In this document: positions 10,594 through 55,987 of the stretch, one piece after another
Layout of the letters: each line of letters starts with the position of its first letter
Position numbering within the stretch: position 1 is the stretch's first letter
Assembly (NCBI GenBank): GCA_013368315.1
Contig: JAACJM010000235.1
Span: 1 to 64,000, forward strand
DNA: 64,000 nt
Source of the DNA: Tetrapyrgos nigripes
Lineage: Eukaryota; Basidiomycota; Agaricomycetes; Agaricales; Campanellaceae
Direction: 5' to 3'
Translations under genes and position numbers: made by a program
Notes under the pieces: model-generated
What the model was told of the DNA's origin: nothing
The model's input: the letters and a program-made list of their open reading frames with translations, nothing else
The model's database searches: none

Positions 10594-13500
10594 ATGCTGC
10601 AGAAAATGGTGGCTACTAAGGATGACAATAATCCTAGGTATGGGTCTTTCATTCATAAGCGCAAGCTAATCTAGAAACTGCAACAGCAACAATACTGGAA
10701 CCTTGCAAGCAGATGTTGGGTATGTAATTATGCTTATTCTAAGTCTCAAAGTTACCAGTAATTGATTTTTAATAAATATGGACAGCCTCTTTCAGCAGGC
10801 TCACAATTTCTCTATAGAGAACAGCAACATAGCTGTTGTAGGAGGCAATCAGTATCAATATAATAATGCAAATCATTATTATGGATTGCAGCATGGTAAG
10901 ATCTTCCTATGAGTTCTATCTCCAAAATCTCAATTATATGTAGATATTATCAGCAAGCTCAATCCTGCCAAAAAAGCATTTCATGACATTGGAGCAAGAG
11001 GTGCCTGTATTGAGGGCACCAGAACCGAAATATTGGAAAAAATTGTAAAATGGGCTGAGGATCCTTCACCAGACACTCCAGTAGGTTATTGGATGTGTGG
11101 TATGGCAGGTACTGGAAAAAGTACCATTGCCAAATCTGTCTGTTTAATACTAGAGGACAAAGGATTGCTAGCTGGAGCATTTTTCTGCTCTCGTCAGATT
11201 CAGGAGTGCAAGGATTATCATAATATTATTCCAACAATTGCATATCAATTGGCTCAACACTCAAGAGACTCTGCACCAGGAATTAGAGAAGCTCTCAACA
11301 TGGATCCAGATATTGCTCTCAAAGAACCAGATAACCAAATCAGAAAACTCTTGTCTGATCTGTGTAAAAATGCTTCCTCCTCTTACAATCCAGTGATGGT
11401 AATTGATGCCTTGGATGAATGTGAGGACATTTCCAACGTGCTGAAACCTCTCATTTCAGCCATCGGAAACCAGAAAATTCAAGGCCTGAGATTTTTCCTG
11501 ACTAGCCGTCCAGAGCAGCATATCAAAGATTATTTCAATGTAAATAACATGCAAGAGGAAGGCCAAATCTTTCAACATTTCTATTTGCATAATGTGCAGA
11601 GAAGTACTGTCACAAAAGATATAGTTCTCTTTCTTCAACAGGGCCTGACATCAATGTCTATCTCTAAAGACAAGATGGAAAGACTTGTGGAAAGCTCTGG
11701 TGTGTTATTCATCTATGCTGCTACCATTATCAAATACATCACTGGGGGCGGGAAAAGGTCTCAAGCTCGACTAGCCAATATTCTTGACCTGAAGCGCACA
11801 CCAGACAGAATACAGACTCAAGTTCTGGATGATCTTTATGGTCAAATCCTTGAGGAAGCTCTTTCATCCTCAAAGCTATCCCCTGAAGAGCAGGAGCAGA
11901 GTTTGAAAGTTATATACACTGTGATCACAACTGCTATCCCTGTATCATGCCAAACTATCTCAGAGCTGCTAAAGCTTGACTTGGAAAATATTCAAGCTAT
12001 AATAACAGATCTGCAGTCAGTTCTGTATATCAATCAGTCTGATCAGGCAATCTACACATTTCATGCATCATTTGTGGACTACATGACTTCAGAGGCAAGA
12101 GCAAAAAATCATTATTGCAATCCAATGAGTCATCACAGTCTCCTTGCAAAACACTGTCTTAGCCTAATGCAGCACCAACTCAATTTCAACATCTGCAATC
12201 TACCCTCATCATTTCTGAGTGATGACAATGTACCACATCTCCAAAGTAAGATAGCCCAAAAGTTTGCAGGAGCATTTGAATATTCATGTATATTTTGGGC
12301 TTATCATGTTACTGAAACTGAGTTTGATGAAAACATAGTTGAAAAAATGGAGGCATTTTTCCAGCTCAAAATTATTTTCTGGATAGAGGCGATGAATCTT
12401 TTAAAGAAGCTTCCGGAATGTACTAAGATCCTTGAATCAATCTCAAAGGTATGTATGTTAATATTATTTACTCATATTATCTGACACTAAATTCATCTAA
12501 TTTTATACAATAAACAGCTATGCCAGGCCAGCAAGTTGACTAGCCATGCAACAAAGGAAACTATACAGGAAATAAAAGAGATGGCAAATGTCTTTGGTTT
12601 AAGCAGTGTAAAAAAAATGACTCCACATCTATACCTTAGCATCATGCCATTTTTTCCAGCTCTAAGCCATAGGCTGGTAAAAGTGGTCAAAGTAGCAAGC
12701 ACAGTGATACCAAACCATTCCATTGGTCATTGGAGGACACCTTCAGGAGTCTTATGCATGAGTGTTTCTCCAGATGGAAAAAAAATTGTAACTGGACTGA
12801 AAAATAATCAGTGTATTATGTGGAATATAAATAACGGAGAACAAATTGGCAAGCCTTTTTTTGGACATCAAGACTGGGTCAGATCAGTGTCTTTTGCTCC
12901 TGATGGAAAAAGAATAGTATCTGGCTCAGATGATTCAACAATAAGAATCTGGGATGCCAGTACTGGAGAGCTTATTTGTAAACCTCTCCAAGGACATGAA
13001 GGTTGGGTATATTCAGTAAAAATTTCTCCTGATGGAACTAGAATTGCCTCTGGCTCAAAAGATAAGACCATAAGAATCTGGAATGCATTTACTGGTCCAG
13101 CAATTGGGCAACCTTTTCAGGGGCATAGCGGCTCTGTCAGATCAGTAGCATTTTCTCCTGATGGGACAAAGATTGTGTCTGGCTCAGAGGACAATACAAT
13201 AAAGATTTGGGATGCAACTACTGGAAACAAAATTGGCCAGTTTTTTGACCTGGATGAGTGGGTTACATCAGTATCATTTTCCCCTGATGGGGCTAAGATA
13301 GCCTCTGCTGCAGGTGGTGTGATAATATGGGATGCAAAAATTAAAAGTGTACTTTGGCAGATTAAAGAAAGATGCTGGCAATTGGCTTTCTCTGCTGACG
13401 AAACCAGAATTGTTTCTGCATTTGGTCAAACAATGGAGATCTGGGATGCAAACACTGGAACAGCTGTTGGCCAGCCTTATCAAGGACATGAGGATGATAT

Positions 13501-14845
13501 TAATTCAGTGGTATTTTCTCCTGATGGATCCAAGATTATTTCTGGCTCGGATGATCAAACTGTGAGGATCTGGGATTCACATATTTTGCCTGTTGTTTAT
13601 GAGCCTGGATGCGGCCATCAAGGAGGAATTACCTGTGTAGCATTTTCTTCTGATGGAGCCAGAATTGTGTCCAGCTCGTATGATAAGACAATAAGAATCT
13701 GGGATGCATACACTGGAAATGCCATTGGAAAGCCTTTCCTGGGACATGCACATGGAGTCCCATCGGTTGCATTTTCACCTGATGGTGCCAGGATTGCATC
13801 TGGCTCATATGATAACACAATAAGAATATGGGATACAGACACTGGAAGTGCCATTGGAGAGCCTTTGCTGGGACATGCAGATGGAGTCACATCAGTTGCA
13901 TTTTCACTTGATGGAGCCAGGATTGCATCTGTCTCATATGATAACACAATCAGAATATGGGATGCAGAGAGTGGAAATGCCATTGGAGAACCCTTGCTGG
14001 GACATACAGACTGTATCAGATCAGTGGTATTTTCTTCTAATGGAACCCTAATTGTGTCTGGCTCAGATGATAACACAATAAGAATTTGGGATTCAAGCAC
14101 AGGAAATGCTATTGGACAGCCACTTCTTGGACATAAAGGCAGAGTCCATTCTGTGGCATTCTCTTCTAATGGAGTTAGAATTGTATCTGGCTCAGGTGAT
14201 GGGACAATAAGGATCTGGGATGCAAGCACTGGAAATGTCATTGGACAACCTTTGCTAGGACATACAGGTGGTGTTCATTCAGTAGCATTTTCTTTAGATG
14301 GAGCCAAGGTTGTATCTGGGGCAGAAGATAAAACAATAAGGATCTGGGATGCAAATACTGGATATGCCATTGGACAGCCTTTACTGGGACATATAGACTG
14401 GGTTAGATCAGTGACATTCTCTCCAGATGGAACCAGAATTTTATCTGGCTCTGATGATTGCACAGTCAGAATTTGGGATGCAACAATTTTGACTCAAGCT
14501 GAGAGCAGTCATTGGCCACTTACAAATAGTGCCTCTGACAAAGTAATTCATCCTTCACATACTGATAGCTGTAAGTATTCCCAATACATTTTCAACAAGA
14601 GCAATCCTGATTTTTTTTTCGCAGCATCTTCCTGGTACCTTGACAGTGGCGGATGGATATGTTTTACTGGAGTCAAACATAGAATCATTTGGATCAGACC
14701 TGAACACAGCTCTTCTCTCTGTACAGCCCAGAATCCCATAATCATCTCTCAGAAAGGCTGTATTAAACTTGACCTTGAGAATTGTGTATATGGAGAAAAT
14801 TGGACTCAGTGTTTTAACAACACGAATGATTCTGGAAAGCAGTAG
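10594..14845 (+). CDS. NACHT-WD40 NLR-like receptor (HET-E/HET-D type architecture)
   Basis: A signal-transducing STAND ATPase of the kind that in fungi controls nonself recognition and regulated cell death (known for HET-D/HET-E of Podospora; inferred here). Six exons fit: 10594-10637, 10687-10719, 10786-10895, 10944-12448, 12518-14570 and 14625-14845. They total 3966 nt, 1321 codons plus stop, with all junctions in phase. Residues 1-62 are short and Asn/Gln/Tyr-rich with LFQQAHNFSIENSNIAVVGG. The NACHT P-loop GMAGTGKST is near residue 114 and Walker B VMVIDALDECED near 214. From about residue 637 there are 14 WD40 repeats, most exactly 43 residues (129 bp) long, enough for two seven-bladed propellers. 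The tail after the last intron (SGGWI ... KLDLENCVYGENWTQC) is typical of agaricomycete family members. There is no large N-terminal effector domain such as Goodbye, HET or a lipase. No internal stop or frameshift was seen. Confidence 0.88.
12863..14515 (+). repeat. 129-bp coding repeats (WD40 blades 2-14)
   Basis: GGACAT-type blade starts fall at 12863, 12992, 13121, then, after two shorter blades, at 13484 and 13613, 13742, 13871, 14000, 14129, 14258 and 14387, exactly 129 bp apart in the last run. Blades 8-14 are much more alike at DNA level than the earlier ones. This uniformity suggests recent tandem amplification or gene conversion within the gene. Confidence 0.8.
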
Positions 14846-22529: not shown

Positions 22530-24427
22530 CTATGGTTTCGAGGTTTGGTGCCTTGACTTGTCTGCTAGTGCCTCGGAGCTTGATGCTTGAGAGCTGCTTG
22601 TTGAAACCTGAGACCGAGACTGAAATTGAGTAGGCATGAAGATCTCCTGGTCTCTGCTTTCCTGGCTCAACTCGTCCAAATCCATGTTCGCTTCATGGTC
22701 GGTATACTCCTCATACTCCTCCTTTGGTTCATCATCATCAGTGTTGTAGTCATCGCTCTCGTTGCTTTTCTCCTTGGCTTTTTCCTTTCCCTTTCCCTTT
22801 CCCTTTCCTTTCCCTTTCCCCTTTCCCCTTTCCCTTTCCCCTTTCCCCTTTCCCTTTCCCTTTCCCTTTCCCTTCTCCTTCCTCCCAATACCCCATTGTT
22901 CCTGCAAATGATCTTGCAGAATTCCTTCAAGTGTATTGTGCATAAACCCAAGCATGATGTGCTTGACAGGATCAAAGTATTCAAGGTCATGGAGCGATGT
23001 CCAGCGCACACCATTTTTTGATGCAATTTCTTCCTGGTGCCCTATTCTCGTCTCTGCCAACCACTTGTCCACCTGCTGCCTTACTATCACTCGATCCCGC
23101 AAAGGGTATTTATCCAAATCTAGGCATTTGATGTCACCATGGAGACCCAAGCACCATGAGCAGTATAACCGAGCGCTATGCGACAGAAAGCCGGTTATCT
23201 TTCTCATTGCTTCCAGATCAGCAATGAGTGGAACCACCATGACACGGATGAATGTTCCTGTAGGATGGAGATGGGTCTGTATTGTGACACCGTGCCAATG
23301 AGTGTTGAGCACCTCTATATGAAGACGCAGGATATTGGATATAGTGTTTGTATCTGGAGCTTTAGGGCTGGGAGTGATTGCAAGAATGAAGGTGTTTTTG
23401 GGAAGATAGTGGAGTGCTGGGGGAAGGTTCATGCAACAGAGCAGGATAGCACCACAGGATACAATTTTACCAGCTATCTTATCCGTAAACGGGTTGAACC
23501 AATCAACGTATAGAGAGAATGTCAAATTGCCTGGTTGCTCAGGAAAGTCGGGTTGCGAATGCCAAGCTCTACTTTGCCAGGTATCCCTCACATTTCCATC
23601 AGGAGAGGGCGGGACATTGTAGGACCTGTTGATCATCTCCTCCATCCCTGGATGTTTCAAGAAGAACTCAAGCCATGACCTGAAACACTGGGTGCTATAC
23701 AAGCACCTAGGGACAGTAATTTCTCCTCTTCCAGTTCTCCTTGTGGTTTTCAAAGGTGTTCCACAGGGATTCCTCTGATATACTCCTTGCTTCCAAAGAC
23801 AATGATCAGGAAGGTTTGCCATGTGGGGATAGAGTGTGAAGCACTTGGGACAGCAGACAGTGCAAATGATTGTTGGTTCAATTTGTAGAGAGCTGTAAGT
23901 AGAACGAATGTCCTGAGGAGTGGAGACTTGTATATTGATATCATAACCACAAGTTTGTAGCGATACCAAAATGATGTGGAAGGCAGTTGCAAGAATGAAG
24001 GCAATGCCATTCAGAACCACATTGGTAGCGGTACGACTGGCACCACCCTTGAGATGAAGCCAAGCTGCTAGGAGAGCTGTCAGATAGGTTATTATTGACA
24101 AGCTCTCGTCTGGAGAAGAGATGAGGATTATGAGTAGTTGGTCAAATGCATCAGTAAGTAAAACCACACACTGCATTCCTCTTGCACAGTTCGGATCCTC
24201 CCTGCAGAATCCCATTGCACCTCTATGATATCCTCATTCTCATCATCTGACTCATCTGTGTCTGAGCCATTCGCGTTGGCTTCCCGTTGCAATGAACTCA
24301 ATCGGTCATGGTTTCGGTGGTCGGTCCTCGTGCTTCTGCCAACCAGTTGGCCAGGGAGGTGTTCTCTGTTGTTGTCGTATGTGAATCGTTCACACTTGGA
24401 GCAATTGCAAACCACTTTGTTGGACAT
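22530..24427 (-). CDS. Tnp2-family CACTA transposase, C-terminally altered
   Basis: Two exons, 24427-24172 and 24109-22530, with a 62-bp intron, give about 611 codons. The N-terminus (MSNKVVCNCSKC ... HLPGQLVGRSTRTDHR) and an acidic stretch are followed by the Tnp2 domain: SLSIITYLTALLAAWLHLKG, CTVCCPKC, LYVDWFNPFTDKIAGK, a LPPALHYLPKNTFILAI segment, an LIADLEAMRKITGF block, CSWCLGLHG and a FDPVKHIMLGFMHNTLEGIL block. After GIGR the protein turns into a Lys/Gly/Glu repeat and a Ser-rich tail. Family members are usually longer than this, so the C-terminal part has probably been lost or replaced. The gene is the best candidate for having mobilised the surrounding CACTG elements. No internal stops were seen in the conserved part. 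Confidence 0.8.
22784..22873 (-). repeat. GGGAAA microsatellite in the tnp2 coding region
   Basis: On the plus strand this is CCCTTT/CCTTTC repeated for about 90 bp; on the coding strand it encodes KGKGKG and GERERGKG runs. Six-base units keep the frame, so length changes are tolerated. Confidence 0.85.
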
Positions 24428-24639
24428 ATAGTGTGTAGGGCTGCAAAGAATAGAAAGGCTTTGACTCTTTGTATTCACAAGTTATATACATTTTCATTTA
24501 ATGCCGGTCTTTGTTCTATATCTGTCGTACTACTACAGTGTTTTCTATATAAGTATATAAGTAGACTCATTCCCGTCGGTTGGTAGAAAGGCACCCTGGC
24601 AGAGTTTGAATGGGGGCACCATCACCAACTGACTGGTAT

Positions 24640-25060
24640 CACTGGAGGCAAATCCCTGTAAATCATCTGCCATACAGAGGTATTACAGTGACCTTACAAC
24701 AAGTCATTCAATAAGTAATCCACCTTGTATTACAGAGGTATTACAGAGAGAAGAATTTTCCAGATCAATGCTGTAAGACTGCTGTAAGACAAGTTGTATT
24801 ACAGGGAGATTTCAGAGGCCAAATCCCTGTATATCCAGTGCCCTACATAGGGATTACAGCAAACTTACACCAAGCCATTGAACAAGTATTCTGCCTTGGA
24901 TTACAGAAGTATTACAGAGAGAAGAAATTTTGGGAGCAATGCTGTAAGACTGCTGTAAGACAAGTTGGATTACAGGGAAATTTCAGAGTGACATGGTGTC
25001 ACAGTAATACATTAGGTAATACAGCCAAGAAATACAGAAGTATTTCAGTGTGACAAAAGT
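24640..25060 (+). repeat. Left arm (unique part of the long TIR)
   Basis: It mirrors 32357-32777 with exactly equal length. It consists of two diverged direct repeats of about 190 bp (from about 24645 and 24828), each with several TATTACAG-type motifs, GCTGTAAGACTGCTGTAAG and ACAAGTTG.ATTACAGGG. Such repeated subterminal motifs are typical of CACTA elements. Confidence 0.9.
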
Positions 25061-28000
25061 GCGCAGGTGGCGTCCAGAGTGCGGGCAGGTTGCGTCCAGG
25101 GTGCACGCAGGTTGCGTCCAGAGTGCGCGCAGGTTGCGTCCAGAGTGTGTGCAGGTGGCGTCCAGAGTGCGTGCAGGTTGCGTCCAGAGTGCGCGCAGGT
25201 TGCGTCCAGGGTGCGTGCAGGTTGCACCCAGAGTGCGTGCAGGTTGCGTCCAGAGTGCGCGCAGGTTGCGTCCAGAGTGCGCGCAGGTTGCGTCCAGGGT
25301 GTGCGCAGGTTGCGTCCAGGGTGCGCGCAGGTTGCGTCCAGAGTGCGCACAGGTTGCGTCCAGAGTGCGTGCAGGTTGCGTCCAGGGTGCGCGCAGGTTG
25401 TGTCCAGAGTGCGCACAGGTTGCGTCCAGAGTGCGCACAGGTTGCGTCCAGGGTGCATGCAGGTTGCGCCCAGAGTGCGTGCAGGTTGCGTCCAGAGTGC
25501 GCGCAGGTTGTGTCCAGGGTGCGTGCAGGTTGCGCCCAGAGTGCATGCAGGTTGCGTCCAGAGTGTGCACAGGTTGCGTCCAGAGTGCGCGCAGGTTGCG
25601 TCCAGGGTGCGCGCAGGTTGCGTCCAGAGTGCACGCAGGTTGCGCCCAGAGTGCGCGCAGGTTGCGTCCAGGGTGCGCGCAGTTTGTGTCCAGAGTGCAC
25701 GCAGGTTGCGCCCAGAGTGCGTGCAGGTTGCGTCCAGAGTGCACGCAGGTTGCGTCCAGAGTGCGCGCAGGTTGCGCTGAGAGGGCCCACAGGGTGCGTG
25801 CAGGTTGCGACCAGGGTGCACGCAGGTTGCGTCCAGGGTGCGCACAGGTTGCGTCCAGAGTGCGCGCAGGTTGCGCCCAGAGTGCGCGCAGGTTGCGTCC
25901 AGAGTGCGCGCAGGTTGCACCAGGTTGCGTCCAGGGTGCGTGCAGGTTGCGCCCAGAGTGCACGCAGGTTGCGCCCAGGGTGCGCGCAGGTTGTGTCCAG
26001 AGTGCGCGCAGGTTGCGCCCAGATTGTGCGCAGGTTGCGTCCAGAGTGCGCGCAGGTTGCGTCCAGGGTGCACCCAGAGTGCGTGCAGGTTGCGTCCAGG
26101 GTGCGCGCAGGTTGCGCCCAGAGTGCACACAGGTTGCGTCCAGAGTGCGCCCAGGTTGCGTCCAGGGTGCACCCAGGTTGCGTCCAGGGTGCGCCCAGGT
26201 TGCGTCCACGGTGTGCGCAGGTTGCGTCCACGGTGTGCGCAGGTTGCGTCCACGGTGCGCGCAAGTTGCGTCCACGGTGCGCACATGTTGCGTCCACGGT
26301 GCGCACATGTTGCGTCCAGGGTGCGCGCAGGTTGCATCCAGAGTGCACGCAGGTTGCGTCCAGAGTGCGCGCAGGTTGCGTCCAGAGTGCGCGCAGGTTG
26401 CGTCCAGAGTGCGCGCAGGTTGCGTCCAGGGTGCGCCCAGAGTGCGTGCAGGTTGCGCCCAGGGTGCGCGCAGGTTGCGTCCAGAGTGCGCGCATGTTGC
26501 GCCCAGAGTGCGCACAGGTTGCGTCCAGAGTGCGCGCATGTTGCGCCCAGAGTGCGCGTAGGTTGCATCCAGAGTGCACGCAGGTTGTGTCCAGAGTGCG
26601 CGCAGGTTGCGTCCAGAGTGTGCGCAGGTTGCGTCCAGGGTGCGCCCAGAGTGCGTGCAGGTTGCGCCCAGGGTGCGCGCAGGTTGCGTCCAGAGTGCGC
26701 ACAGGTTGTGTCCAGAGTGCGCGCAGGTTGCGTCCAGAGTGCGCGCAGGTTGCGTCCAGAGTGCGCGCAGGTTGCGCCCAGAGTGCGTGCAGGTTGCGTC
26801 TAGAGTGCACGCAGGTTGCGTCCAGAGTGCGCGCAGGTTGCATCCAGAGTGCGCGCAGGTTGTGTCCAGAGTGCGTGCAGGTTGCGCCCAGGGTGCGCCC
26901 AGGTTGCGTCCAGGGTGCGTGCAGGTTGCGCCCAGGGTGCGCGCAGGTTGCGTCCAGAGTGCGCGCAGGTTGCGCCCAGAGTGCGCGCAGGTTGCGTCCA
27001 GGGTGCGTGCAGGTTGCGTCCAAAGTGCACGCAGGTTGCATCCAGGGTGCGCCCAGGTTGCCTCCAGGGTGCACGCAGGTTGCGTCCAGGGTGCACGCAG
27101 GTTGCGTCCAGGGTGCGCGCAGGTTGCGCCCAGGGTGCGCGCAGGTTGCGTCCAGAGTGCACGCAGGTTGCATCCAGGGTGCGTGCAGGTTGGGTCCAGA
27201 GTGCGCGCAGGTTGGGTCCAGAGTGCGTGCAGGTTGCATCCAGAGTGCGCGGAGGTTGCGTCCAGGGTGCGCGCAGGTTGCGCCCAGAGTGCACGCAGGT
27301 TGCGCCCAGAGTGCACGCAGGTTGTGTCCAGAGTGCGCACAGGTTGCGTCCAGGGTGCGCCAGAGTGCGCGCAGGTTGTGTCCAGGGTGCGCGCAGGTTC
27401 GCACAGGTTGCGTCCAGAGTGCGTGCAGGTTACGTCCAGGGTGCGTGCAGGTTGCGTCCAGAGTGCGCGCAGGTTGCGCCCAGAGTGCGCGCAGGTTGCG
27501 TCCAGAGTGCGCGCAGGTTGCACCCAGGGTGCACCCAGGTTGCGTCCAGGGTGCGCCCAGAGTGCGCACAGGTTGCGTCCAGAGTGCGCCCAGGTTGCGT
27601 CCAGGGTGCATGCAGGTTGCGTCCAAAGTGCGCCCAGGTTGCCTCCAGGGTGTGCCCAGGTTGCCTCCAGGGTGCGCGCAGGTTGCGCCCAGGGTGCGTG
27701 CAGGTTGCGTCCAGAGTGCACACAGGTTGCGTCCAGAGTGCGCGCAGGTTGTGTCCAGGGTGCGCGCAGGTTGTGCCCAGAGTGCGCGCAGGTTGCGTCC
27801 TGAGTGTGCGCAGGTTGCGTCCAGGGTGCGTGCAGGTTGCGTCCAGAGTGCGCGCAGGTTGCGTCCAGAGTGCGTGCAGGTTGCATCCAGAGTGTGCGCA
27901 GGTTGCGTCCAGAGTGCGCGCAGGTTGTGCCCAGATTGCGCGCAGGTTGCGTCCAGGGTGCGCCCAGGTTGCGCCCAGAGTGCGCGCAGGTTGCGTCTAG

Positions 28001-31000
28001 AGTGCGCACAGGTTGCGTCCAGAGTGCGCACAGGTTGCGTCCAGAGTGCGCGCAGGTTGCGTCCAGGGTGCGCGCAGGTTGTGCCCAGAGTGCGCACAGG
28101 TTGCGTCCAGAGTGCGCACAGGTTGTGTCCAGGGTGCGCGCAGGTTGTGTCCAGGGTGCGCGCAGGTTGTGCCCAGAGTGCGCGCAGGTTGCATCCAGAG
28201 TGCGCACAGGTTGCGTCCAGGGTGCGCGCAGGTTGCGTCCAGGGTGTGCGCAGGTTGCGTCCAGGGTGCGCGCAGGTTGCGCCCAGGGTGCGTGCAGGTT
28301 GCGTCCAGAGTGCACGCAGGTTGCGTCCAGAGTGCGTGCAGGTTGCACCCAGGGTGCGCCCAGGTTGCGTCCAGGGTGCGTGCAGGTTGCGTCCAGGGTG
28401 CGCGCAGGTTGCGTCCAGAGTGCGCGCAGGTTGCGTCTAGAGTGCGCACAGGTTGCGTCCAGAGTGCACGCAGGTTGCGTCTAGAGTGCGCGCAGGTTGC
28501 GTCCAGAGTGCGTGCAGGTTGCGTCCACGGTGCGCGCAGGTTGCGTCCAGGGTGTGCGCAGGTTGTGTCCAGGGTGCGTGCAGGTTGCGTCCAGGGTGCG
28601 CGCAGGTTGCGTCCAGAGTGCGTGCAGGTTGCATCCAGAGTGCGCGCAGGTTGCGCCCAGAGTGCGTGCTGGTTGCGTCCAGGGTGCGCGCAGGTTGCGT
28701 CCAGAGTGCGCGCAGGTTGCGTCCAGGGTGCGCGCAGGTTGCGTCCAGGGTGTGCGCAGGTTGCGTCCAGGGTGCGTGCAGGTTGCGTCCAGGGTGTGCG
28801 CAGGTTGCGTCCAGAGTGCGCGCAGGTTGCGTCTAGAGTGCGCACAGGTTGCGTCCAGAGTGCACGCAGGTTGCGTCTAGAGTGCGCGCAGGTTGCGTCC
28901 AGAGTGCGTGCAGGTTGCATCCAGGGTGCATGCAGGTTACGTCCAGGGTGCGTGCAGGTTGCGTCCAGAGTGCGCCCAGGTTGCGCCCAGAGTGCGCCCA
29001 GGTTGCGTCCAGAGTGCGCGCAGGTTGCGTCCAGGGTGGGTGCAGGTTGCACCCAGAGTGCGTGCAGGTTGCATCCAGAGTGTGCGCAGGTTGCGTCCAG
29101 AGTGCGCGCAGGTTGCGCCCAGATTGCGCGCAGGTTGCGTCCAGGGTGCGCGCAGGTTGCGCCCAGAGTGCGCGCAGGTTGCGTCTAGAGTGCGCACAGG
29201 TTGTGTCCAGAGTGCACACAGGTTGCGTCTAGAGTGCGCGCAGGTTGCGTCCAGAGTGCGTGCAGGTTGCGTCCAGGGTGCGTGCAGGTTGCGTCCAGGG
29301 TGCGTGCAGGTTGCATCCAGAGTGCGCGCAGGTTGTGTCCAGAGTGCGCGCATACGCAGGTTGCGCCCAGAGTGCGCCCAGGTTGCGCACAGGTTGCGTC
29401 CAGGGTGCGCCAGAGTGCGCGCAGGTTGTGTCCAGGGTGCGCGCAGGTTCGCACAGGTTGCGTCCAGAGTGCGTGCAGGTTACGTCCAGGGTGCGTGCAG
29501 GTTGCGTCCAGAGTGTGCGCAGGTTGCGTCCAGAGTGCGCGCAGGTTGCGCCCAGATTGCGCGCAGGTTGCGTCCAGGGTGCGCGCAGGTTGCGCCCAGA
29601 GTGCGCGCAGGTTGCGTCTAGAGTGCGCACAGGTTGCGTCCAGAGTGCGCACAGGTTGCGTCCAGAGTGCGCGCAGGTTGCGTCCAGGGTGCGCGCAGGT
29701 TGTGCCCAGAGTGCGCACAGGTTGCGTCCAGAGTGCGCACAGGTTGTGTCCAGGGTGCGCGCAGGTTGTGTCCAGGGTGCGCGCAGGTTGTGCCCAGAGT
29801 GCGCGCAGGTTGCATCCAGAGTGCGCACAGGTTGCGTCCAGGGTGCGCGCAGGTTGCGTCCAGGGTGCGTGCAGGTTGCACCCAGGGTGCGCCCAGGTTG
29901 CGTCCAGGGTGCGTGCAGGTTGCGTCCAGGGTGCGCGCAGGTTGCGTCCAGAGTGCGCGCAGGTTGCGTCTAGAGTGCGCACAGGTTGCGTCCAGAGTGC
30001 ACGCAGGTTGCGTCTAGAGTGCGCGCAGGTTGCGTCCAGAGTGCGTGCAGGTTGCGTCCACGGTGTGCGCAGGTTGCGTCCAGGGTGTGCGCAGGTTGCG
30101 TCCAGGGTGCGTGCAGGTTGCGTCCAGGGTGCGCGCAGGTTGCGTCCAGAGTGCGTGCAGGTTGCATCCAGAGTGCGCGCAGGTTGCGCCCAGAGTGCGT
30201 GCAGGTTGCGTCCAGGGTGCGCGCAGGTTGCGTCCAGAGTGCGCGCAGGTTGCGTCCAGGGTGCGCGCAGGTTGCGTCCAGGGTGTGCGCAGGTTGCGTC
30301 CAGGGTGCGTGCAGGTTGCGTCCAGGGTGCGCGCAGGTTGCGTCCAGAGTGCGCGCAGGTTGCGTCTAGAGTGCGCACAGGTTGCGTCCAGAGTGCACGC
30401 AGGTTGCGTCTAGAGTGCGCGCAGGTTGCGTCCAGAGTGCGTGCAGGTTGCATCCAGGGTGCGTGCAGGTTACGTCCAGGGTGCGTGCAGGTTGCGTCCA
30501 GAGTGCGCCCAGGTTGCGCCCAGAGTGCGCCCAGGTTGCGTCCAGAGTGCGCGCAGGTTGCGTCCAGGGTGGGTGCAGGTTGCACCCAGAGTGCGTGCAG
30601 GTTGCATCCAGAGTGTGCGCAGGTTGCGTCCAGAGTGCGCGCAGGTTGCGCCCAGATTGCGCGCAGGTTGCGTCCAGGGTGCGCGCAGGTTGCGCCCAGA
30701 GTGCGCGCAGGTTGCGTCTAGAGTGCGCACAGGTTGTGTCCAGAGTGCACGCAGGTTGCGTCTAGAGTGCGCGCAGGTTGCGTCCAGAGTGCGTGCAGGT
30801 TGCGTCCAGGGTGCGTGCAGGTTGCGTCCAGGGTGCGTGCAGGTTGCATCCAGAGTGCGCGCAGGTTGTGTCCAGAGTGCGCGCATACGCAGGTTGCGCC
30901 CAGAGTGCGCCCAGGTTGCGCCCAGAGTGCGCCCAGGTTGCGCCCAGAGTGCGCCCAGGTTGCGCCCAGAGTGCGCCCAGGTTGCGCCCAGAGTGCGCCC

Positions 31001-31916
31001 AGAGTGCGCCCAGGTTGCGCCCAGAGTGCACCCAGGTTGCGTCCAAGCGTGCGCCCAGGTTGCGTCCAGGGTGCGTGCAGGTTGTGTCCAGAGTGCGCGC
31101 AGGTTGCGTCCAGGGTGCGCGCAGGTTGCGTCCAGAGTGTGCGCAGGTTGCGCCCAGGGTGCGTGCAGGTTGCGCCCAGAGTGCGCGCAGGTTGCGTCCA
31201 GAGTGCGCGCAGGTTGCGTCCAGGGTGCATGCAGGTTGCGTCCAGAGTGCGCACAGGTTGCGCCCAGATTGCGCGCAGGTTGCGTCCAGGGTGCACGCAG
31301 GTTGCGCCCAGAGTGCGCGCAGGTTGCGTCCAGAGTGCGCGCACGTTGCGTCCAGAGTGCGCGCAGGTTGCGCCCAGATTGCGCGCAGGTTGCGTCCAGG
31401 GTGCGCGCAGGTTGCGCCCAGAGTGCGCGCAGGTTGCGCCCAGAGTGCGCCCAGGTTGCGCCCAGAGTGCGCCCAGGTTGCGTCCAGAGTGCGCGCAGGT
31501 TGCGTCCAGAGTGCACGCAGGTTGCACCCAGAGTGCGCGCAGGTTGCGTCCAGGGTGCGCGCAGGTTGCGTCCAGGGTGTGCGCAGGTTGCGTCCAGGGT
31601 GCGTGCAGGTTGCGTCCAGAGTGCGCGCAGGTTGCGCCCAGAGTGCGCACAGGTTGCGTCCAGAGTGCGCGCAGGTTGCGTCCAGGGTGCGTGCAGGTTG
31701 CGTCCAGAGTGCGCGCAGGTTGCGCCCAGATTGCGCACAGGTTGCGCCCAGAGTGCGCGCAGGTTGCGTCCAGGGTGCGCGCAGGTTGCGTCCAGAGTGC
31801 GCGCGTACGCAGGTTGCGCCCAGAGTGCGCACAGGTTGCGTCCAGAGTGCGCACAGGTTGCGTCCAGGGTGCGTGCAGGTTGCGTCCAGAGTGCGCGCAG
31901 GTTGCGTCTAGGGTGC
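25061..31916 (+). repeat. 22-bp tandem repeat array, forward orientation (about 310 units)
   Basis: The commonest unit is GTGCGCGCAGG followed by TTGCGTCCAGA (22 bp). Units differ mostly at three CpG sites (GCGCGC to GCGTGC, GCACGC, GTGCGC or GCGCAC; TTGCGTCC to TTGCATCC or TTGTGTCC), at A/G in CCAGAG/CCAGGG, and at T/C in GCGTCC/GCGCCC. Rare units carry small insertions or deletions, for example a TACGC insertion near 29350, 30883 and 31803 and shortened units near 27358, 27400, 29409 and 29452. Because 22 is not a multiple of three and the unit has no stop in any frame, all six frames stay open with a 22-residue period. This is not evidence of a protein. Confidence 0.97.
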
Positions 31917-32356
31917 GCACTCTGGGCGCAACCTGCATGCACCCTGGACGTAACCTGCGCGCACTCTGGACGCAACCTGCACGCACTCTGGACACAACCT
32001 GCGCGCACTCTGGACACAACCTGCGCGCACCCTGGACACAACCTGCACGCACTCTGGACGCAACCTGTGCGCACTCTGGACGCAACCTGCGCGCACCCTG
32101 GACGCAACCTGCGCACACCCTGGACGCAACCTGCGCGCACTCTGGACGCAACCTGCGCGCACTCTGGACGCAACCTGCACGCACCCTGGACGCAACCTGC
32201 GCGCACTCTGGACGCAACCTGCGCACACTCTGGACGCAACCTGCACGCACTCTGGACGCAACCTGCGCACACTCTGGATGCAACCTGCGCGCACTCTGGA
32301 CGCAACCTGCGTGCACCCTGGACGCAACCTGCCCGCACTCTGGACGCCACCTGCGC
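31917..32356 (-). repeat. 22-bp array, inverted part (about 20 units)
   Basis: The same unit in the opposite orientation. The switch is centred on the palindrome GTGCGCAC at 31913-31920. Read on the minus strand, the unit order and variants follow the start of the forward array (25061 to about 25478) closely, including the rare GGTGGCGTCC and GCGGGCAGG units at the outer end. The long terminal inverted repeat therefore extends to the switch point, giving arms of about 840-860 bp. Confidence 0.93.
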
Positions 32357-32777
32357 ACTTTTGTCACACTGAAATACTTCTGTATTTCTTGGCTGTATTA
32401 CCTAATGTATTACTGTGACACCATGTCACTCTGAAATTTCCCTGTAATCCAACTTGTCTTACAGCAGTCTTACAGCATTGCTCCCAAAATTTCTTCTCTC
32501 TGTAATACTTCTGTAATCCAAGGCAGAATACTTGTTCAATGGCTTGGTGTAAGTTTGCTGTAATCCCTATGTAGGGCACTGGATATACAGGGATTTGGCC
32601 TCTGAAATCTCCCTGTAATACAACTTGTCTTACAGCAGTCTTACAGCATTGATCTGGAAAATTCTTCTCTCTGTAATACCTCTGTAATACAAGGTGGATT
32701 ACTTATTGAATGACTTGTTGTAAGGTCACTGTAATACCTCTGTATGGCAGATGATTTACAGGGATTTGCCTCCAGTG
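32357..32777 (-). repeat. Right arm (unique part of the long TIR)
   Basis: Inverse copy of 24640-25060, same length, no difference noticed. Confidence 0.92.
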
Positions 32778-32793
32778 TATAACATGTCGTCAG

Positions 32794-32965: not shown

Positions 32966-35900
32966 TTAATCCTTGCCCGAGTCGTCCGAGTCATCGTCAA
33001 GGCCAGTATCCACTTCTACCTCTATGACATCCATATCCAGCGCGACATCCTCCTCATTCTCCAGTGCAACCAATGGTTCATCCTCACCATCCAATATATC
33101 TGCTAACCTTTGTGTAAAATCCTCTCCAGACTCCTCTACCAACTCATCACCAGCCGGACTTGAAACCTCAGCAACAAACATTGAAGCAGTAGAAACCGGG
33201 ATTTCAGCGATGGTATCATCTGCTGAATTAAAAGGTGCATAGAACTCTTCACCGACAACCGGAATAATTTTACTCCTTCTCTGCAGACGCTTGAATGAGG
33301 TGTTGTACTCGTCCAGCAGTGATGGGGAACCTTGCAGAAGAAGCTTCATGCCTTCGGTGACCATGTCTTTGATGATATCCTCATCGGAATCAAGCATACG
33401 GCCCTTCGTAATTTTGTATATGTCGTGCTCAGCGAGACTATTCATGAGTATCTTGATGTCATTACTTAGATCTGGTGGTGCGTGTTTCGTCCCCTTTGTT
33501 CGTTCTCCAAGTTCCATACCCATTTTCTCTGCCAGATCACGTAGTCCAGCCACACATGGAGAGATTTTAAAGAGCCAGTCCCAGGTAGAGTTACTACCAT
33601 GTGCTTTGTAGATATTCTACAATGAGATTAGTACTTATAATAAAGAGATCTAGTTGTTAAAACTCACCTTGATCCAGTAGTTCAGGTGTTCTTGTAATAA
33701 ATCAGCCTCAATAAAGCCATCTGTCTTGCCGGTTGTGTTTATGAGCCAATTCTTAAGAACGATGTTTCTAAGAGCAACGAGTTCAGATAGATACGGGGTT
33801 CGAATGAATTTTACTAACCTGATTCCCTTGGGCCACACAGATGTCAGCATCTTGTATGCGTATTTTGATCGACCATTGCCTCTGAAACTCAGCGCCCACA
33901 CCTTGAGTACCAGTAACATGCGTCCTGAATCGCCAACCTTAATTGCATCTGCAAACTCTCGAGATAGAAGCGTATCCCGCATGAAAAGCACTGCATTTTC
34001 AAAAAACACATCACCTTCAGTCACTTTCACACTATCCTGACCTCCTGCATTCATTTCAATCTCCTTCTCCTTCTCCTTCCCCTTCTTCTTCTTGCCCTTA
34101 GGATTAGCTGCAGTATAGGATTGCTGCTGAGCAGCCCTTGCCTCTCATAAGTCATCAACAATCTTTGTGTTTGCAAAACGTTCATATATGGCTGTGGCGT
34201 CGATCTGGAACAATTTCCAGTCTGCAGATTGTGCGTATTCTTCAAGGGAATTTTTGCCAGAGACCAAAAGAAGGCAATGAAGGACACGAGCATAGAGAGA
34301 GACGTAAGTGAGATCACGGCAGACTCTGAATGTGGGCAAAGATGTGAGGGATATGGGAAGACGATAGAGGAGGTTGTTGTGAAAGGATAGACTACCAGGA
34401 TTCCTTGTTCCTGCATCTGGTTTGCCATAATGAACGTTATAAAGACCAGTTATGTCTGCAATCTTGGTGTGAAATCCACCAGGGAACCAAGCACACCACC
34501 CAAAGCCCAAATAACCTCCTTCCTTCCCAACTCGTAGTTGAAAAAGAGACCGCAATCTCGCCAAAGAAAGCTGATCCACACCAATGACACACTGGGTGCA
34601 AACACTTGTAATTCCTTGGATATACTGAGGAATTATATAAGACTTACACTGGTACGCTCAATATGTAAGTCCACTTGAATTACTGAAGTATTACCAGGGA
34701 CCACTGTGAGACTTCATGCCTTAAAATGGTCATATATAATTGTTCTATTTTTTTTGGTCTCTGGTAATACTTCAGTAAGTCAAGTGGACTTACATATTGA
34801 GTGTACCAGTGTAAGTCTTATGTAATTCCTCTGTATATCCAAGGAATTACAAGTGTTTGCACCCAGTGACACGAACTATCTTCATCCATAGTGGTGATTC
34901 CTTCAACCTCAACTCTTCAACAATTGCAGCATCGACTTCAGCATTCCCAACAATGGTTGATTCATCGATATTGAGTGAAGGAAGAGGGTAAATCTTCGTA
35001 CGTTCTCCAACACTGTGTTTAATCTTGATATCTGAGGTGGGAAGATTCTTGTCCAGGTCAGTGTGAAACTTTGGTTGACAATGATACGTTGTATAGTGTG
35101 TATCATAGAAGAACGAAGAAGCTTCTGCTCAGCTTCGTTCAATAGAATATCCGATTTAGACAGCTCTGGAGCTGTGGCAAATGACTCTCTGAACTCAGAA
35201 AGCTGCATATCCTTTATATCGGCCTCATTCATCTCGTAGAACGTGTAGTTTGTGCCATTCTCCTGCGTGTCTATACAGAAATCATTGAGTGTTAAGTCAA
35301 GAGAATATAAGAAAGGTACCTTTACAGCTGACGATTGACGTTGCTCATGCAAAGAAGTTCATGTTGTCATAACTTTTGACTATTAATCCAGATGATGCAA
35401 TTTGGCGTGCCTCTTGCAGAAAAGAGTTGGAAAGATTATGAAGTGTTCCTGCTACTCGACGATTTTCCTTGGGCAGAACCATATCGTTGTCTTCATTCAC
35501 TTGTGGAGTGGACTGTGGCAATGGTCGGGCGTGTGCCAGAATCTCCATCTGTCCAACCTCTTCCAATGACATCTGCTTCACATTGATGTCTGCTATCAAT
35601 CGACCCTTCTGAACAAAGCCAGAGTAGCTCTCGACTATTGACAGATGAGATAGACAGGATATAACCTGCCTGGTGGCTCCATTCGCATACAGGTAAAGTG
35701 CCATGACTTTTTGCGTATAATTGTTGGATTTACTGTATTCGTTGAGGCAGGACAAGACAGCTGAAGTGACAGTCTGTTTAAAGAAGGAATCAGCACCACA
35801 GATCATTCGAAGAGTTAAGTACGTACTGCCATTTTACGATCCATGCGAACTTCAGAGAGCTTCTTCAGCTGCCGAGGAGAAGTGGCCAGTGCTTCGAAAA

Positions 35901-43240: not shown

Positions 43241-43374
43241 TATCTCATAATGCATAAATCTGATAATGCATGAGGATTTGCCAGAACAAGCACTGTTCCC
43301 TGCCAAACTGGCCCCAAATTGCATAATGCATTGAGATTTTGGAAAAATTTTGGGGCAGTATGCATTATGAGATA
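43241..43374. mobile_element. Small TA-flanked MITE
   Basis: TATCTCATAATGCAT at 43241-43255 is mirrored by ATGCATTATGAGATA at 43360-43374. If the outer TA is the target duplication, the inverted repeat is TCTCATAATGCAT, as in Tc1/mariner-derived MITEs. Confidence 0.6.
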
Positions 43375-46567: not shown

Positions 46568-46593
46568 CACTGGAAGCAAATCCCTGTATATAC
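46568..46593 (+). repeat. Orphan CACTG terminus
   Basis: CACTGGAAGCAAATCCCTGT is nearly the same as the end of the satellite-bearing element at 24640 (CACTGGAGGCAAATCCCTGT). It runs straight into LTR sequence lacking its first 70 bp or so, so a CACTG element and the LTR were joined by deletion here. Confidence 0.6.
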
Positions 46594-50886: not shown

Positions 50887-53800
50887 GGACAGTTAAAGAA
50901 CAATTGATATAGTGTGTTATACCCCTCTGGTGAGCGAGTCTTTCCTTCAGAACTAAGAATGTCGGAGATACCATCAATCACACTCAAAACTGAATTAATC
51001 GGCAAAGTTACTGGCAGGAAAATCGACGCAAACACTCTAATAGATAGCGGTGCAGAAGGCATAATCATCAACAGCCGGTTCGCACAAAGACATCAACTCA
51101 CCCTTCTTCCTATCAAAAAACCATTCCCAGTATGAAACGTTGACAGCTCTGAAAACACCATGGGATGGGTACGAGAATACACTATCCAAAATCTCCGTAT
51201 CTATTCCCGAGACAACAAAGCGTACCACAAAGAGAAGGCCGAGTTCTACGTGACGGACACCTCGGTACCGACTGGTTGGAAGAACATAACCCAGACATAG
51301 ATTGGTCGGACTCACAGATGAGCATGACTAGATGCCCAGAGACATGTATCATAGCGAACCCCCCCATTCTCTGTCTGAAAACTAAAACAAAACCCTTGAA
51401 ATCCACGGTCATCGATCCAAGAACCCATCACAAAGATTACCAAGTCAGATGGTTAGAACCAGTTGGACAATTCAAACCAGTTGCCCAATCAAAAATTGCA
51501 GGACGACGCCGTTGGATTCCTATTCGATCCTTCCATCGAAATTCGGAGGTAACAGCGATCTTTACTGAAGACGATTGCAGGAGAGACACGATCCCAGAAT
51601 GATGGGAACAAGATGTAATGGAGCAACTGTTGGGGGAAGAGGAAAGAATAGCTGAAGAGACGTCAGGGACACCAAACCTGAACATCTGCGCGGGGTTCAC
51701 AAAGGCACAAGAACTTGCAGAGGCAGCCCAGAATGTCCAGGTCGATATACCTCTTAAAGATAAGATTCCTTCGCAATATCATCAGTTCTTACGAGTCTTT
51801 GACAAACAAACCTCAGAACGATTACCAAAATGTGGTGAATGGGATCATGCTATCGAATTAAAACCGGACTTCGAACCGTGCCCTTGCAAAACGTATCCTT
51901 TATCCCCAAATGAACAAAAGGAACTCGATGAATTCATCAAGGAAAACTTAGAGAAAGGGTACATAAGACCATCGAAATCTCCTATGGCAAGTCCTTTCTT
52001 CTTCATAAAAAAGAAAGACGGAAAACTGTGACCAGTACAGGATTATCGCACCTTAAACAAAGGAACCGTCAAAAACGAATATCCCCTACCGCTCATATCA
52101 GAACTCATAGACAAACTAAAAGGGGCACGGATGTTCTCTAAAATCGACCTCAGATGGGGATATAACAACGTACACATCAAAAAGGGAGATGAATGGAAAG
52201 CAGCATTTAAAACAAACTGCGGGCTCTTCGAACCAACAGTGATGTTCTTCGGTCTTATGAACTCTCCAGCTACATTCCAAGCGATGATGAACACCTTATT
52301 CAAGGACCTGATCGACTCTGGAAAAGTCGTGATCTATATGGACAATATTCTCATATTCACAGAGTCACTAGAAGAACACCGATACATGGTAAAACAAGTA
52401 CTTGCACGACTCCAAGACAACGATCTGTACGCTAAACTGGAGAAGTGCACTTTCGAAACCGATTCAGTGGAGTTCCTCGGCCTTATCGTTTCACACAATA
52501 CGCTGGTGATGGATCCAGTCAAGGTCGAGGGCGTAACCAAATGGCCAGTCCCACGCAACGTCAAGGACGTACAATCATTCCTCGGCTTCGGAAACTTTTA
52601 CCGTCGTTTCATATGAGACTTCTCAAAAATCGCACGACCACTGTTCGATCTCACGAAGAAGGATCACCCATGGAAATGGTCCGATGAAGCTGACAAAGCT
52701 TTTCAAACACTCAAAGATATGTTTACGACTTCACCAGTCCTTCTCATGCCTGATCATTCTAAACCATATCGAGTAGAAGTTGCTGCATCAGACTACACTA
52801 CAGGAGGTATCTTACAACAACAGGGACTGGACAATAAGTGGCATCCGGTAGCCTACTTGTCAAAAGCTTTGTCTGAAACCGAACGGAATTACGACATTCA
52901 CGATAAAGAATTGTTAGCAATCATATGTGGACTTGAAGCTTGGCGACACTACCTGGAAGGCGGACCACATACCATTGAAATCCTGACTGATCACGACAAT
53001 CTTAGATACTTCACTACTGCTCAGAAACTCAGCCGACGACAAGCAAGAATGGCCTTGTTCCTGACCAGATTTGACTTTACACTCATTCATAAACCCGGAA
53101 ACCTTAACTGAAGCGACCCACTCTCTCGGAGATCAGATCATAAAGAGGGGGTCGAGAACGACAACAAGGATAGGGTCTTACTTGACCTGAGGTTCTTCAG
53201 GATTCGAGCAACGAGGCCAGGAACAGTGACCGCAATGGGAGATGCAGAGTTGAAAAGGCAGATTAAAGAATGCCTGAAAAGAGATGCCAAAGTCGTAAGT
53301 GCGTTACAAACCATCTTTAACAACGGACCACACGCGCTGGCAAAAAATCTACAGGAATGGAATTACAAAGACAGGATCATCTTGTTCCGAGGAAAGATCT
53401 ATATCCCAAATGACCAACAACTCAGGTGAGACATCGTTAAAATGCATCACGACAGTCTTACCGCAGGACATCCGGGACGATTCAAAACGTACGAACTCAT
53501 CAGTAGAGAATTCTGGTGGCCTGGTATGTCGGTATTCGTTCGTAACTATGTCGAAGGACGCGCTACCTGTCAGTTGACAAAGGCAAATAATCACCTGGCA
53601 CATGTACCACTGATACTGAACGAGATACCAGAACGACCCTTTGGCACAATTACAACCGACTTCATCACAGATCTGCCAGAATGTGACGGCTTTAATGCAA
53701 TTCACGTCACAGTTGATCGTTCAACGAAAACAGTTGTTATCTCTCCATGCAGAAAGGATATCAATAGCGATGGAACAATCGACCTATTATTCAACAGCTT

Positions 53801-54791
53801 ATGGGACAAGATGATATCTGACCGTGGACCTCAATTCGCAAGCCAAGTAATGAAAGGCATATACGCTAAGTTAGGCATCACTTTGGCACTCAGTACAGCT
53901 TATCATCCACAAACAGATGGCAAGACAGAAAGGTTCAATCAAGAACTCAAACAGTACCTTTGAACCTTCTGCAACTATCGCCAAGATGATTGGGTTAAAT
54001 ACCTACCTTACGCTGAATTTTGCCACAACACACAAGTTCATTCAGCAACCGGGAAGTCGTCATTTGAACTGCTCCATGGATATCTACCCCGACTCTTCCC
54101 TTCCATCAACCCAACTTCACACGTACCAAAGGTCAAAGAACGCCTTCAAAACCTAGACGTTCTCCAAGAAGAACTAAAAGCGAGTCTGACGACAGCGGCA
54201 GAATTGATGAAGGAACAAAACAACGACTATACAAACAAAGGGAGGAAGTTTAAAGTTGGGGACAAAGTGTTGCTAGACAGAAAGAATTTGAAGACAATGA
54301 GGCCAAAAGCTAAGTTGGCAAATCATTGTCACGGACCATTCGAAATCACTGACGTTATCAGCGAAGTCAATTACCAACTCAAATTACCGACTACCTGGCG
54401 CATTCATCCAGTGTTCCATGCTTCACTCCTATCGCCATACAAAGAAACCGAAGCTCACGGAGTGAACTACCTGGGAGAGCCAGCCGAGTTACTTCCCGAA
54501 GACAATGAATACGATGTGGAAGCAATTCTAGATTCGAAACCGACGAGAAACCGCCGGGGAGTACAATACCTTGTCAAATGGTTGGACTATGCTGACTCAG
54601 AGAATTCATGGGAACCAGCATCAGGATTGACAAAGGTAAAAGATATGATAGAAACCTTCCACCAACAACACCCAAATGCGTATCGACCAAAAAACCTGAT
54701 ACGTCCAGGAACAACAGTGCGTTCACTGGGAATCGCCATAGAGGATATATGGCAAAGTACTCGTGTGCTTCAGGCGAAAGCACAACTCTGA
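50887..54791 (+). pseudogene. gypsy-1 pol (protease, RT, RNase H, integrase, chromodomain), inactivated
   Basis: Protease: LIDSGAEGIII with the catalytic Asp at about 51043. Reverse transcriptase: FSKIDLRWGYNNV and the active site VIYMDNILIF at about 52329-52358, with Asn in place of the second Asp of YxDD, a variant seen in other fungal elements. RNase H: VEVAASDYTTGGIL to ILTDHDNLRYF. Integrase: HH at 53443-53448, but the expected CxxC reads GRATCQ, so one zinc ligand is Arg; core acids lie in ITTDFITDLP, MISDRGPQFA and DGKTERFNQ, with about six residues missing before MISDRG. Chromodomain: EYDVEAILDS to ENSWEPASGL (54507-54672). TGA codons interrupt after KKKDGKL, RRFI, PGNLN, NDQQLR and ELKQYL. 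Confidence 0.88.
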
Positions 54792-55573: not shown

Positions 55574-55987
55574 TGTCATGAATCGCTCCCTACCTATTCA
55601 TTTCCTTTCTATTCCTTCTCCTTTACTACCTATTTCCCATCCTATTTACTTTTAAAACCCCTAAAACATTGACTGTTTTCCATCATCATCTATAGTTACC
55701 ATCTCTACAGATCTATGACTCACACTCTTATCTCCTCCGATTCCTATCTCCATGGACATTCTCACTGTCAATCACTCCATATGATCCAGTACCTTCATCT
55801 ATCTATATTTGACTCATTACTCTCTTGCTCTTGATGTTTCCACATGACACCATCTATTATTACTTACTATTTCTCATCTGTTCATATTTTACTTATATAC
55901 CTGTGATCCTTGTAACCTATTCCTTAGTTCGTTCACTTCGTCTCTGCTCCGTACTACTACTACGCAGTGTAGAGCCTAGTCAGCTTA

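Follow-up and report, generated by a model that had tools for sequence, protein, structure and literature searches.

Satellite arrays in described transposons

It has long been asked how satellites come to occupy new sites and how their arrays expand; a link to a transposon, where there is one, is often already degraded when it comes to be examined. Several such links have been described. In Chenopodium quinoa the CACTA-like element Jozin, which carries Transposase_21, has 5,550 bp of its 16.5 kb taken up by an array of 171-bp monomers (PMC8978399). Another Chenopodium satellite, CficCl-61-40, comes from CACTA tnp2 derivatives, its monomer being derived from a tnp2 fragment (PMC7320549), and the same report cites Atenspm in Arabidopsis and Afa/TM-2 in Triticeae as tandem arrays from CACTA deletion derivatives. 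The repeat of the Drosophila virilis element Tetris is also reported as longer satellite-like arrays (PMC4079207). Fungal EnSpm elements are described with CAC..GTG ends, 3-bp target duplications and transposases with C(2)C and H(3-4)H motifs (PMC12730594); the terms "satellite" and "tandem repeat" have no occurrences in the main text of that paper. A literature search over titles and abstract openings, with thin coverage of subscription journals, returned no description of a fungal CACTA element with a satellite body. CACTA elements that carry or generate satellite arrays, and foldback elements with tandem repeats, are already published, and the general idea is not new.

Here we describe a locus in a 64,000-bp stretch of contig JAACJM010000235.1 of the agaricomycete Tetrapyrgos nigripes (the window), together with its relatives in the same genome; array lengths and unit order are those of the draft assembly, which has 587 contigs. 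We consider it very probable that positions 24640-32777 are a copy of a non-autonomous CACTA (EnSpm, CMC group) family in which a 22-bp satellite array stands in place of a coding body. The family looks like a satellite repeat spread by a transposon.

Structure of the element

An initial annotation had delimited an element with CACTGG ends and TAT on either side, and its boundaries proved exact (Table 1). The equal and apparently identical 421-bp arms that it described do not differ at any position, and the inverted identity in fact runs on to a perfect 498 bp, made up of the 421-bp arm and 77 bp of array. Between the arms lie 7,296 bp of array, about 325 units of 22 bp, with units covering 99.5%. 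An earlier count of about 330 units was a fair one, given TRF copy numbers of 307.2 + 20.1 and 305 + 20 matches to the unit core at no more than 3 mismatches. The description of the interior as 22-bp array and nothing else holds for the satellite body but had missed the inversion of the last 20 units, with the switch at about 31915. Block duplications are present in the plus-strand array, with offsets of 0.4-2.1 kb for the first five listed.

Table 1. Positions of the features discussed, in window coordinates
Feature	Positions	Strand	Remarks
Left target site duplication, TAT	24637..24639	.	sequence read
Left arm, 421 bp, starts CACTGG	24640..25060	+	171-bp tandem duplication at 24645-24988; 13 TTACAG/CTGTAA motifs
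22-bp satellite array, ~305 units, consensus CAGGTTGCGTCCAGAGTGCGCG	25061..31914	+	TRF and core matching
Inverted part of satellite array, 20 units	31915..32356	-	TRF and core matching
Right arm, 421 bp, ends CCAGTG, equal to left arm	32357..32777	-	171-bp tandem duplication at 32429-32772
Right target site duplication, TAT	32778..32780	.	sequence read
Orphan end stub, 24 bp, 92% like element end	46568..46591	+	not an intact element

Subterminal regions rich in short direct and inverted motifs are a CACTA/EnSpm trait, described as a CACTA feature in PMC8978399, and the 421-bp arm has such a region: the motif TTACAG/CTGTAA occurs 13 times per arm, whereas 2,000 mononucleotide shuffles gave 0.26 on average and never more than 3. 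Open reading frames spanning the array (up to 1,121 aa, in several frames and on both strands) were considered as genes and are read as a by-product of the stop-poor repeat. In place of genes the element contains a long block of the 22-bp repeat. A tnp2 ORF at 22530-24215 lies outside the element ends and was rejected as part of the element; it apparently belongs to a separate multi-copy element, since the stretch 24500-24561 recurs at full length and 98-100% identity on 14 other contigs, several of which have PF02992 about 1 kb away.

A dispersed family with target duplications and empty sites

Searching the genome with the 24-bp end at no more than 3 mismatches gave 280 matches and a reversed-pattern control gave 0. 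The initial annotation had been right to expect other family members, but the orphan end at 46568 from which it drew that expectation is a truncated stub, followed from 46587 by a 282-bp stretch 99% identical to 55643-55924; such a stub abutting a shared repeat was not accepted as a second member. The arm is present over 420-422 bases and at 98-100% identity at 40 places (40 scored among 471 candidates). Junctions from arm to array number 85 on 43 contigs (control 0), and 12 of the 100 ends listed had neither an array junction nor an extended arm in the matches listed.

The annotation had further suggested that copies be compared for size, 3-bp duplications and empty sites. Sizes vary, with arrays from about 0.7 kb to 9 kb. 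All 19 complete copies are flanked by a perfect 3-bp target duplication, of many different sequences, and all 19 have CACTGG..CCAGTG termini, the end by which they were chosen; in 18 of them the satellite makes up 92.5-100% of the sequence between the arms. The window copy is the only complete copy without differences between its 421-bp arms; left and right arm differ at 2-4 positions in 5 copies and at 6-15 in 11, and two copies have a shortened arm (L025, with 43 differences, and L027, with 121). In the other complete copies the exact inverted ends are shorter than the 498 bp of the window copy.

The search for uninterrupted counterparts covered 17 distinct sites and succeeded for 9. Eight of these have empty counterparts at 10 places, checked letter by letter, and the ninth is the window's own site, with an uninterrupted counterpart at 78-82% identity. 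The empty sites carry a single target copy with neither arms nor array, and several are identical to the flanks of the corresponding element. The arms are therefore found neither once only nor in constant surroundings: the 280 ends lie genome-wide among many different flanks. Together with the duplications in all 19 complete copies and the empty sites, this supports the proposal of a CACTA-type mobile element with a satellite body whose arrays have reached new sites by insertion.

A transposase-bearing relative

The nineteenth complete copy, the one that is not almost pure satellite, carries a transposase. It occupies 15.4 kb at C34:14467-29856, has the family's ends between two copies of TAT, and contains a degenerate array of the 22-bp unit. 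It encloses a 396-aa ORF with a match to PF02992 (tnp2; E=1.6e-18), in which CHMC at 164 is followed by HDFMH at 260 (CxxC and HxxxH) and two further H(3-4)H strings are present; a DUF4218 match in the same element falls just below the family cut-off. A PF02992 match lies inside 1 of the 35 end-pairs listed (compared by eye), that of C34, and when the 421-bp left arm of this element was compared with those of the 18 other copies, 17 of the comparisons showed 21-26 differences. Because C34 stands alone among the 35 listed pairs and its left arm is divergent, the actual helper may be a different, unseen copy.

We also considered whether C11:382770-383969, with 84% identity to the transposase of C34, marks another copy that carries a transposase, and rejected this, the surrounding 14.8 kb having neither ends nor array. 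Further relatives of the C34 transposase, at 81-86%, occur on C139, C405, C32 and C2, plus fragments, and one of the 120 transposase relatives listed is from the agaricomycete Candolleomyces aberdarensis. The sequence GCATGCAGGTTTTTTCCAGAGAC in C34 was considered as a source of the 22-bp unit and set aside, as the likeness was judged by eye and by rough estimate a chance match is expected in 15 kb.

Array differences and probable remodelling between copies

Arrays vary in length and order while the arms of the copies stay nearly identical. When complete copies were compared in all 171 pairings, the longest run of unit variants common to both averaged 11.4, against 11.2 when shuffled. That array order is not common to most copies compared suggests that the array changes at about the time of each move or later, and it qualifies the earlier idea of arrays arriving in one step. 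Remodelling appears to be incomplete, since some pairs share array pieces: runs of 19-21 units, compared with 11-14 in shuffles, are common to the pairs C138/L013, C138/L019 and L013/L019, and 36% of the L010 array lies in exact matches of at least 66 bp to the array of the window copy. A bias towards transitions was also observed.

Two copies at one site have 33+77 and 83+74 units. Exact matches of at least 66 bp cover 65-66% of each array in this pair; in the remaining 304 ordered pairs (C34 excluded) the median is 4.35% and no value exceeds 36%. We base the comparison on these matches rather than on BLAST of the two arrays at 97% identity or above, which gave at most 116 bp. In one of the two copies exact inverted stretches of at least 100 bp extend over 66% of the array, the longest (689 bp) between the array halves. 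The flanks of the pair also match a third contig, C286, where the element is absent, so that alleles and segmental copies are indistinguishable here.

A more far-reaching proposal, which we put forward tentatively and with more doubt than belief, is that every transposition cycle rewrites the 22-bp array, through gap repair or through foldback copying between inverted arrays. Each insertion would then acquire a new length and unit order under constant arms, and the satellite would live solely as the changeable body of the element.

Interpretation and alternatives

If the locus is a satellite-bodied, non-autonomous CACTA element, tnp2 transposases of the C34 type would recognise the arms and act in trans, and the whole unit, array included, would be cut and pasted into new sites. 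Unequal exchange within direct repeats may reshape the array afterwards or during gap repair, and its two inverted halves may also exchange with, or be copied from, one another; the products would be new lengths, shifted orientation switches and copies with a single orientation.

The 22-bp unit could in addition be more than passenger DNA: an amplified candidate binding site, for the transposase or for a host protein, that would aid the element's movement or its tolerance by the host, with the array kept long by selection on the element. Such a role is compatible with a satellite-bodied CACTA element, and we think it rather unlikely. It would suit the position of the unit, which lies directly inside the arms in short-arm, extended-arm and transposase-bearing copies alike, and for foldback arms it has been suggested that the repeats provide additional binding sites (PMC4079207); however, the arm motif TTACAG/CTGTAA is absent from the unit consensus, and the wide range of array lengths argues against a tight requirement.

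The orientation of the arrays bears on a second alternative, in which the element is of foldback type, belongs to a different superfamily (P/Galileo-like or Mutator-like) and has long inverted repeats that contain tandem repeats. In 13 of the 19 complete copies the array is bidirectional, as in a foldback, and long inverted repeats with internal tandem repeats are indeed present, just as tandem repeats sit inside the inverted repeats of Tetris (PMC4079207). The array is nevertheless unidirectional in the remaining 6, the duplication is 3 bp in all 19 rather than the 8-10 bp of Tetris, the ends read CACTGG, and C34, which shares these ends, has a transposase of tnp2 type, all of which makes a foldback origin very improbable.

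Among the matches listed, the satellite is almost confined to elements or their edges. Of the first 100 exact unit cores listed (of 4,246), 99 fall within or next to elements, the other being an isolated 14-mer; the 100 two-unit matches listed (of 118) are all in an element or no more than 4 kb inside a family end; and large arrays independent of elements were not seen among the matches listed. An old free array flanked by chance by element ends, or a collapse or join by the assembler, is the least credible explanation, for although arrays are hard to assemble and the genome is a draft, arm-array-arm units with their own 3-bp duplication recur on many contigs, empty sites lack both arms and array, and the listed cores are so distributed.

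Comparison with known systems

The link between satellite and transposon looks fresh in this genome, with 3-bp duplications, empty sites, arms 98-100% alike at 40 places and a transposase-bearing relative, so that insertions and array changes can be followed separately.

Helitrons and Helentrons use another transposition enzyme and other termini and are not known to produce target duplications. Their likeness to the present family lies in conserved ends around a central tandem array variable in length and direction (PMC12628747). Tetris is likewise apparently non-autonomous and its repeat number differs between allelic copies, but its duplications are 8-10 bp, its unit is about 220 bp and three structurally complete copies are described (PMC4079207). 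Fungal EnSpm elements share CAC..GTG ends and 3-bp duplications with the family, and their transposase motifs have candidate counterparts in the C34 ORF (PMC12730594). As for CficCl-61-40, the tandem arrays are linked to CACTA elements (PMC7320549), the difference being that the units here are nearly all in or beside elements among the matches listed. Jozin resembles the family in having an array inside a CACTA element, the same array in several copies and a dispersed chromosomal distribution (PMC8978399). Its array is described as added towards the 3' end of an element whose coding part is retained, whereas here satellite makes up 92.5-100% of the interval between the arms in 18 of 19 complete copies, and the array is bidirectional in 13 of 19.

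A CACTA element built of satellite and its insertions

The window (C230:1-64000, in a genome of 98.46 Mb and 587 contigs) carries a non-autonomous CACTA element in which 421-bp arms bound a 7,296-bp tandem array whose 22-bp unit has the consensus CAGGTTGCGTCCAGAGTGCGCG. Its terminal inverted identity extends for 498 bp with no mismatch, and each arm holds one 171-bp tandem duplication and 13 occurrences of TTACAG/CTGTAA, where 2,000 shuffles average 0.26. About 305 units of the array point rightward and the final 20 leftward, the reversal lying near 31915.

Features of the window
Feature	Position	Description
129-bp tandem repeat	13640-14483	within 769-aa open frame 12536-14845; 43 residues per unit
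tnp2 (PF02992) ORF	22530-24215 (-)	561 aa; immediately left of the window element
Window element	24640-32777	CACTGG left, CCAGTG right; TAT flanking each side
Inverted arm pair	34590-34868	two 114-bp arms, 96% complementary, 51 bp between
Retrotransposon pieces	52131-54791 and 57179-57760	reverse transcriptase, integrase, Tf2-type SH3 and chromodomain matches
Tandem duplication	59327-59506	87-bp stretch, copies 99-100% identical

The initial annotation had taken this element to be a mobile unit and proposed comparing copies for 3-bp duplications and empty sites, and both kinds of evidence bear it out. A perfect 3-bp duplication flanks every one of the 19 complete copies, the window's and that on contig C34 included, with many different sequences represented. 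When the flanking sequences of 18 copies, representing 17 distinct sites, were joined with a single copy of the duplication and the best 40 of 780 candidates were scored, at least eight of the 17 sites gave uninterrupted counterpart matches of about 180 bp. Ten of these empty places were read: the 77-base stretch spanning the junction is unchanged in seven and carries 1, 4 and 5 differences in the remaining three. The window's own site had no uninterrupted match among those best 40 candidates, and a separate search found uninterrupted relatives of it on C24, C179 and C139 (82% identity) and on C14 (78%), so that at least nine of the 17 sites have an empty counterpart. Since several of the searched sites lie in repeated DNA, some of these counterparts are paralogous copies and not alleles.

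Family size and location of the satellite

The suggestion that the family has other members is amply confirmed: the 24-bp end occurs 280 times in the genome with up to three mismatches, and a reversed control not once. A 422-bp arm query gave 42 matches from the best 40 of 471 candidates scored, 40 of them covering 420-422 bases at 98-100% identity, and arm-to-array junctions number 85, distributed over 43 contigs. Among the first 100 ends listed of the 280, 64 have such a junction, 24 have an extended arm with about 250 bp more ahead of the array (best 40 of 71 candidates), and 12 have neither among the matches listed. These 100 ends form 35 facing pairs with spans of 1.5-17.3 kb, some of the long ones enclosing other DNA (C170:37643-49318 has 3 kb of interior without any unit). 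All ten extended-arm loci read, C34 included, run on into the family's satellite.

Extra junctions lie inside two loci, L018 (C209:37561-42503, at 39746 and 40336) and L021 (C133:41941-46604, at 43312), and suggest nested or fused elements. A partial second arm of 241 bp (C22:419708-419948), beginning 19 bp to the right of a complete copy, may likewise represent a nested or abortive insertion.

Satellite fills 92.5-100% of the interval between the arms in 18 of the 19 complete copies and 13% in C34. Exact 14-base unit cores number 4,246 genome-wide, 1,541 of them within the complete copies; among the first 100 listed, 51 lie within a complete copy on C6, 28 adjoin an extended arm on C2, 20 are flanked by two extended arms on C5 and one, on C1, is isolated. 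A two-unit 44-mer occurs 118 times, and each of the 100 matches listed lies, as judged by eye, inside an element or no more than 4 kb inward of a family end. Free satellite arrays beyond the matches listed are possible.

Arms and arrays compared between copies

The identical arm pair of the window copy is the exception among the 19 complete copies: five copies have arms 2-4 bases apart, 11 have arms 6-15 bases apart, and the two arms differ more in two copies where one of them is shortened. Many copies combine two recognisable arm types, with junction sequences GTGCGCAGGTGGCG and GTGTGCAGGTAGCATCC.

Copies whose arms are 0-2 of 421 bases apart are common, and despite such near-identical arms the order of unit variants shows, on average, no likeness beyond that of shuffled strings (longest shared run, mean 11.4 versus 11.2 shuffled; 171 pairs, three shuffles each). 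Across 304 ordered pairs, the same-site pair described below being set apart, exact matches of at least 66 bp cover a median of 4.35% of the array and never more than 36%. The arrays alter quickly. Residual sharing is seen in C138/L013, C138/L019 and L013/L019, with runs of 19-21 units versus 11-14 shuffled.

Two copies, L009 (C308:15033-19748) and L011 (C262:13423-19409), occupy one insertion site, with 1 and 4 mismatches in 600 flanking bases, and the site is empty on a third contig (L054, C286:92548-92746); these are either alleles plus a duplicated copy or three segmental copies. This pair is the clear exception to the low sharing: exact matches of at least 66 bp cover 65-66% of each of its arrays, the shared unit run is 21 versus 13 shuffled, and unit counts are 33+77 in L009 and 83+74 in L011. 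Exact inverted matches of at least 100 bp, the longest 689 bp, cover 66% of the L011 array, whereas in none of the 17 further copies counted do they exceed 10%. The two halves of the L011 array have thus apparently exchanged sequence, or one has been copied into the other. C138 and the window array contain duplicated blocks, offset by about 1.6 kb. These observations fit remodelling by unequal exchange together with exchange between inverted halves, which could act at transposition or afterwards. Assembly error within the arrays is possible.

Across 289 units of the window's + array, the six CpG bases of the unit carry transitions at 11.4% of sites, and the other 16 positions carry changes of all kinds at 5.1%, or 1.6% without the two two-state positions. 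Decay of methylated CpG would produce such an excess. The observed/expected CpG ratio is still 0.92 in the array versus 0.53 in the remaining window.

A copy with a transposase gene

The complete copy C34:14467-29856 (15.4 kb) has family-type ends with TAT flanking both sides and encloses a 396-aa ORF that matches PF02992 (E=1.6e-18) and contains the strings CHMC and HDFMH; an adjacent ORF matches DUF4218 at 24.9 bits, below the cut-off of 27. Units of the family lie on its left side, between about 15.2 and 16.9 kb on the contig, with a few more near 29.0 kb, all strongly decayed. Compared with the left arms of the 18 other copies, its own 421-base left arm has 21-26 differences in 17 cases and 132 against L027, whose left arm is shortened. 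By-eye comparison with profile matches placed PF02992 in none of the other 34 listed end pairs. We infer that C34 or a sister copy is the transposase source for the family.

Other features of the window

Beside the tnp2 ORF, 24500-24561 has 98-100% copies on 14 other contigs, several near PF02992 matches, and the ORF is apparently part of a second, separate multi-copy CACTA-like element. The inverted arm pair looks like a small inverted-repeat element, the identity of its copies would make the 87-bp duplication recent, and the 43-residue units may be WD-repeat-like.

Comparison with published systems

Chenopodium has CACTA elements carrying internal satellite arrays (PMC8978399) and satellites generated by CACTA derivatives (PMC7320549, which cites satellite-generating cases in Arabidopsis and Triticeae), foldback elements contain tandem repeats whose number varies between alleles (PMC4079207), and fungal EnSpm elements with 3-bp duplications are already described (PMC12730594). 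A fungal CACTA family with essentially all-satellite non-autonomous copies was not found among the titles and abstract openings searched. Within a general kind that is published, what appears to be new here is the all-satellite non-autonomous fungal CACTA copy, its array often running in two inverted directions.
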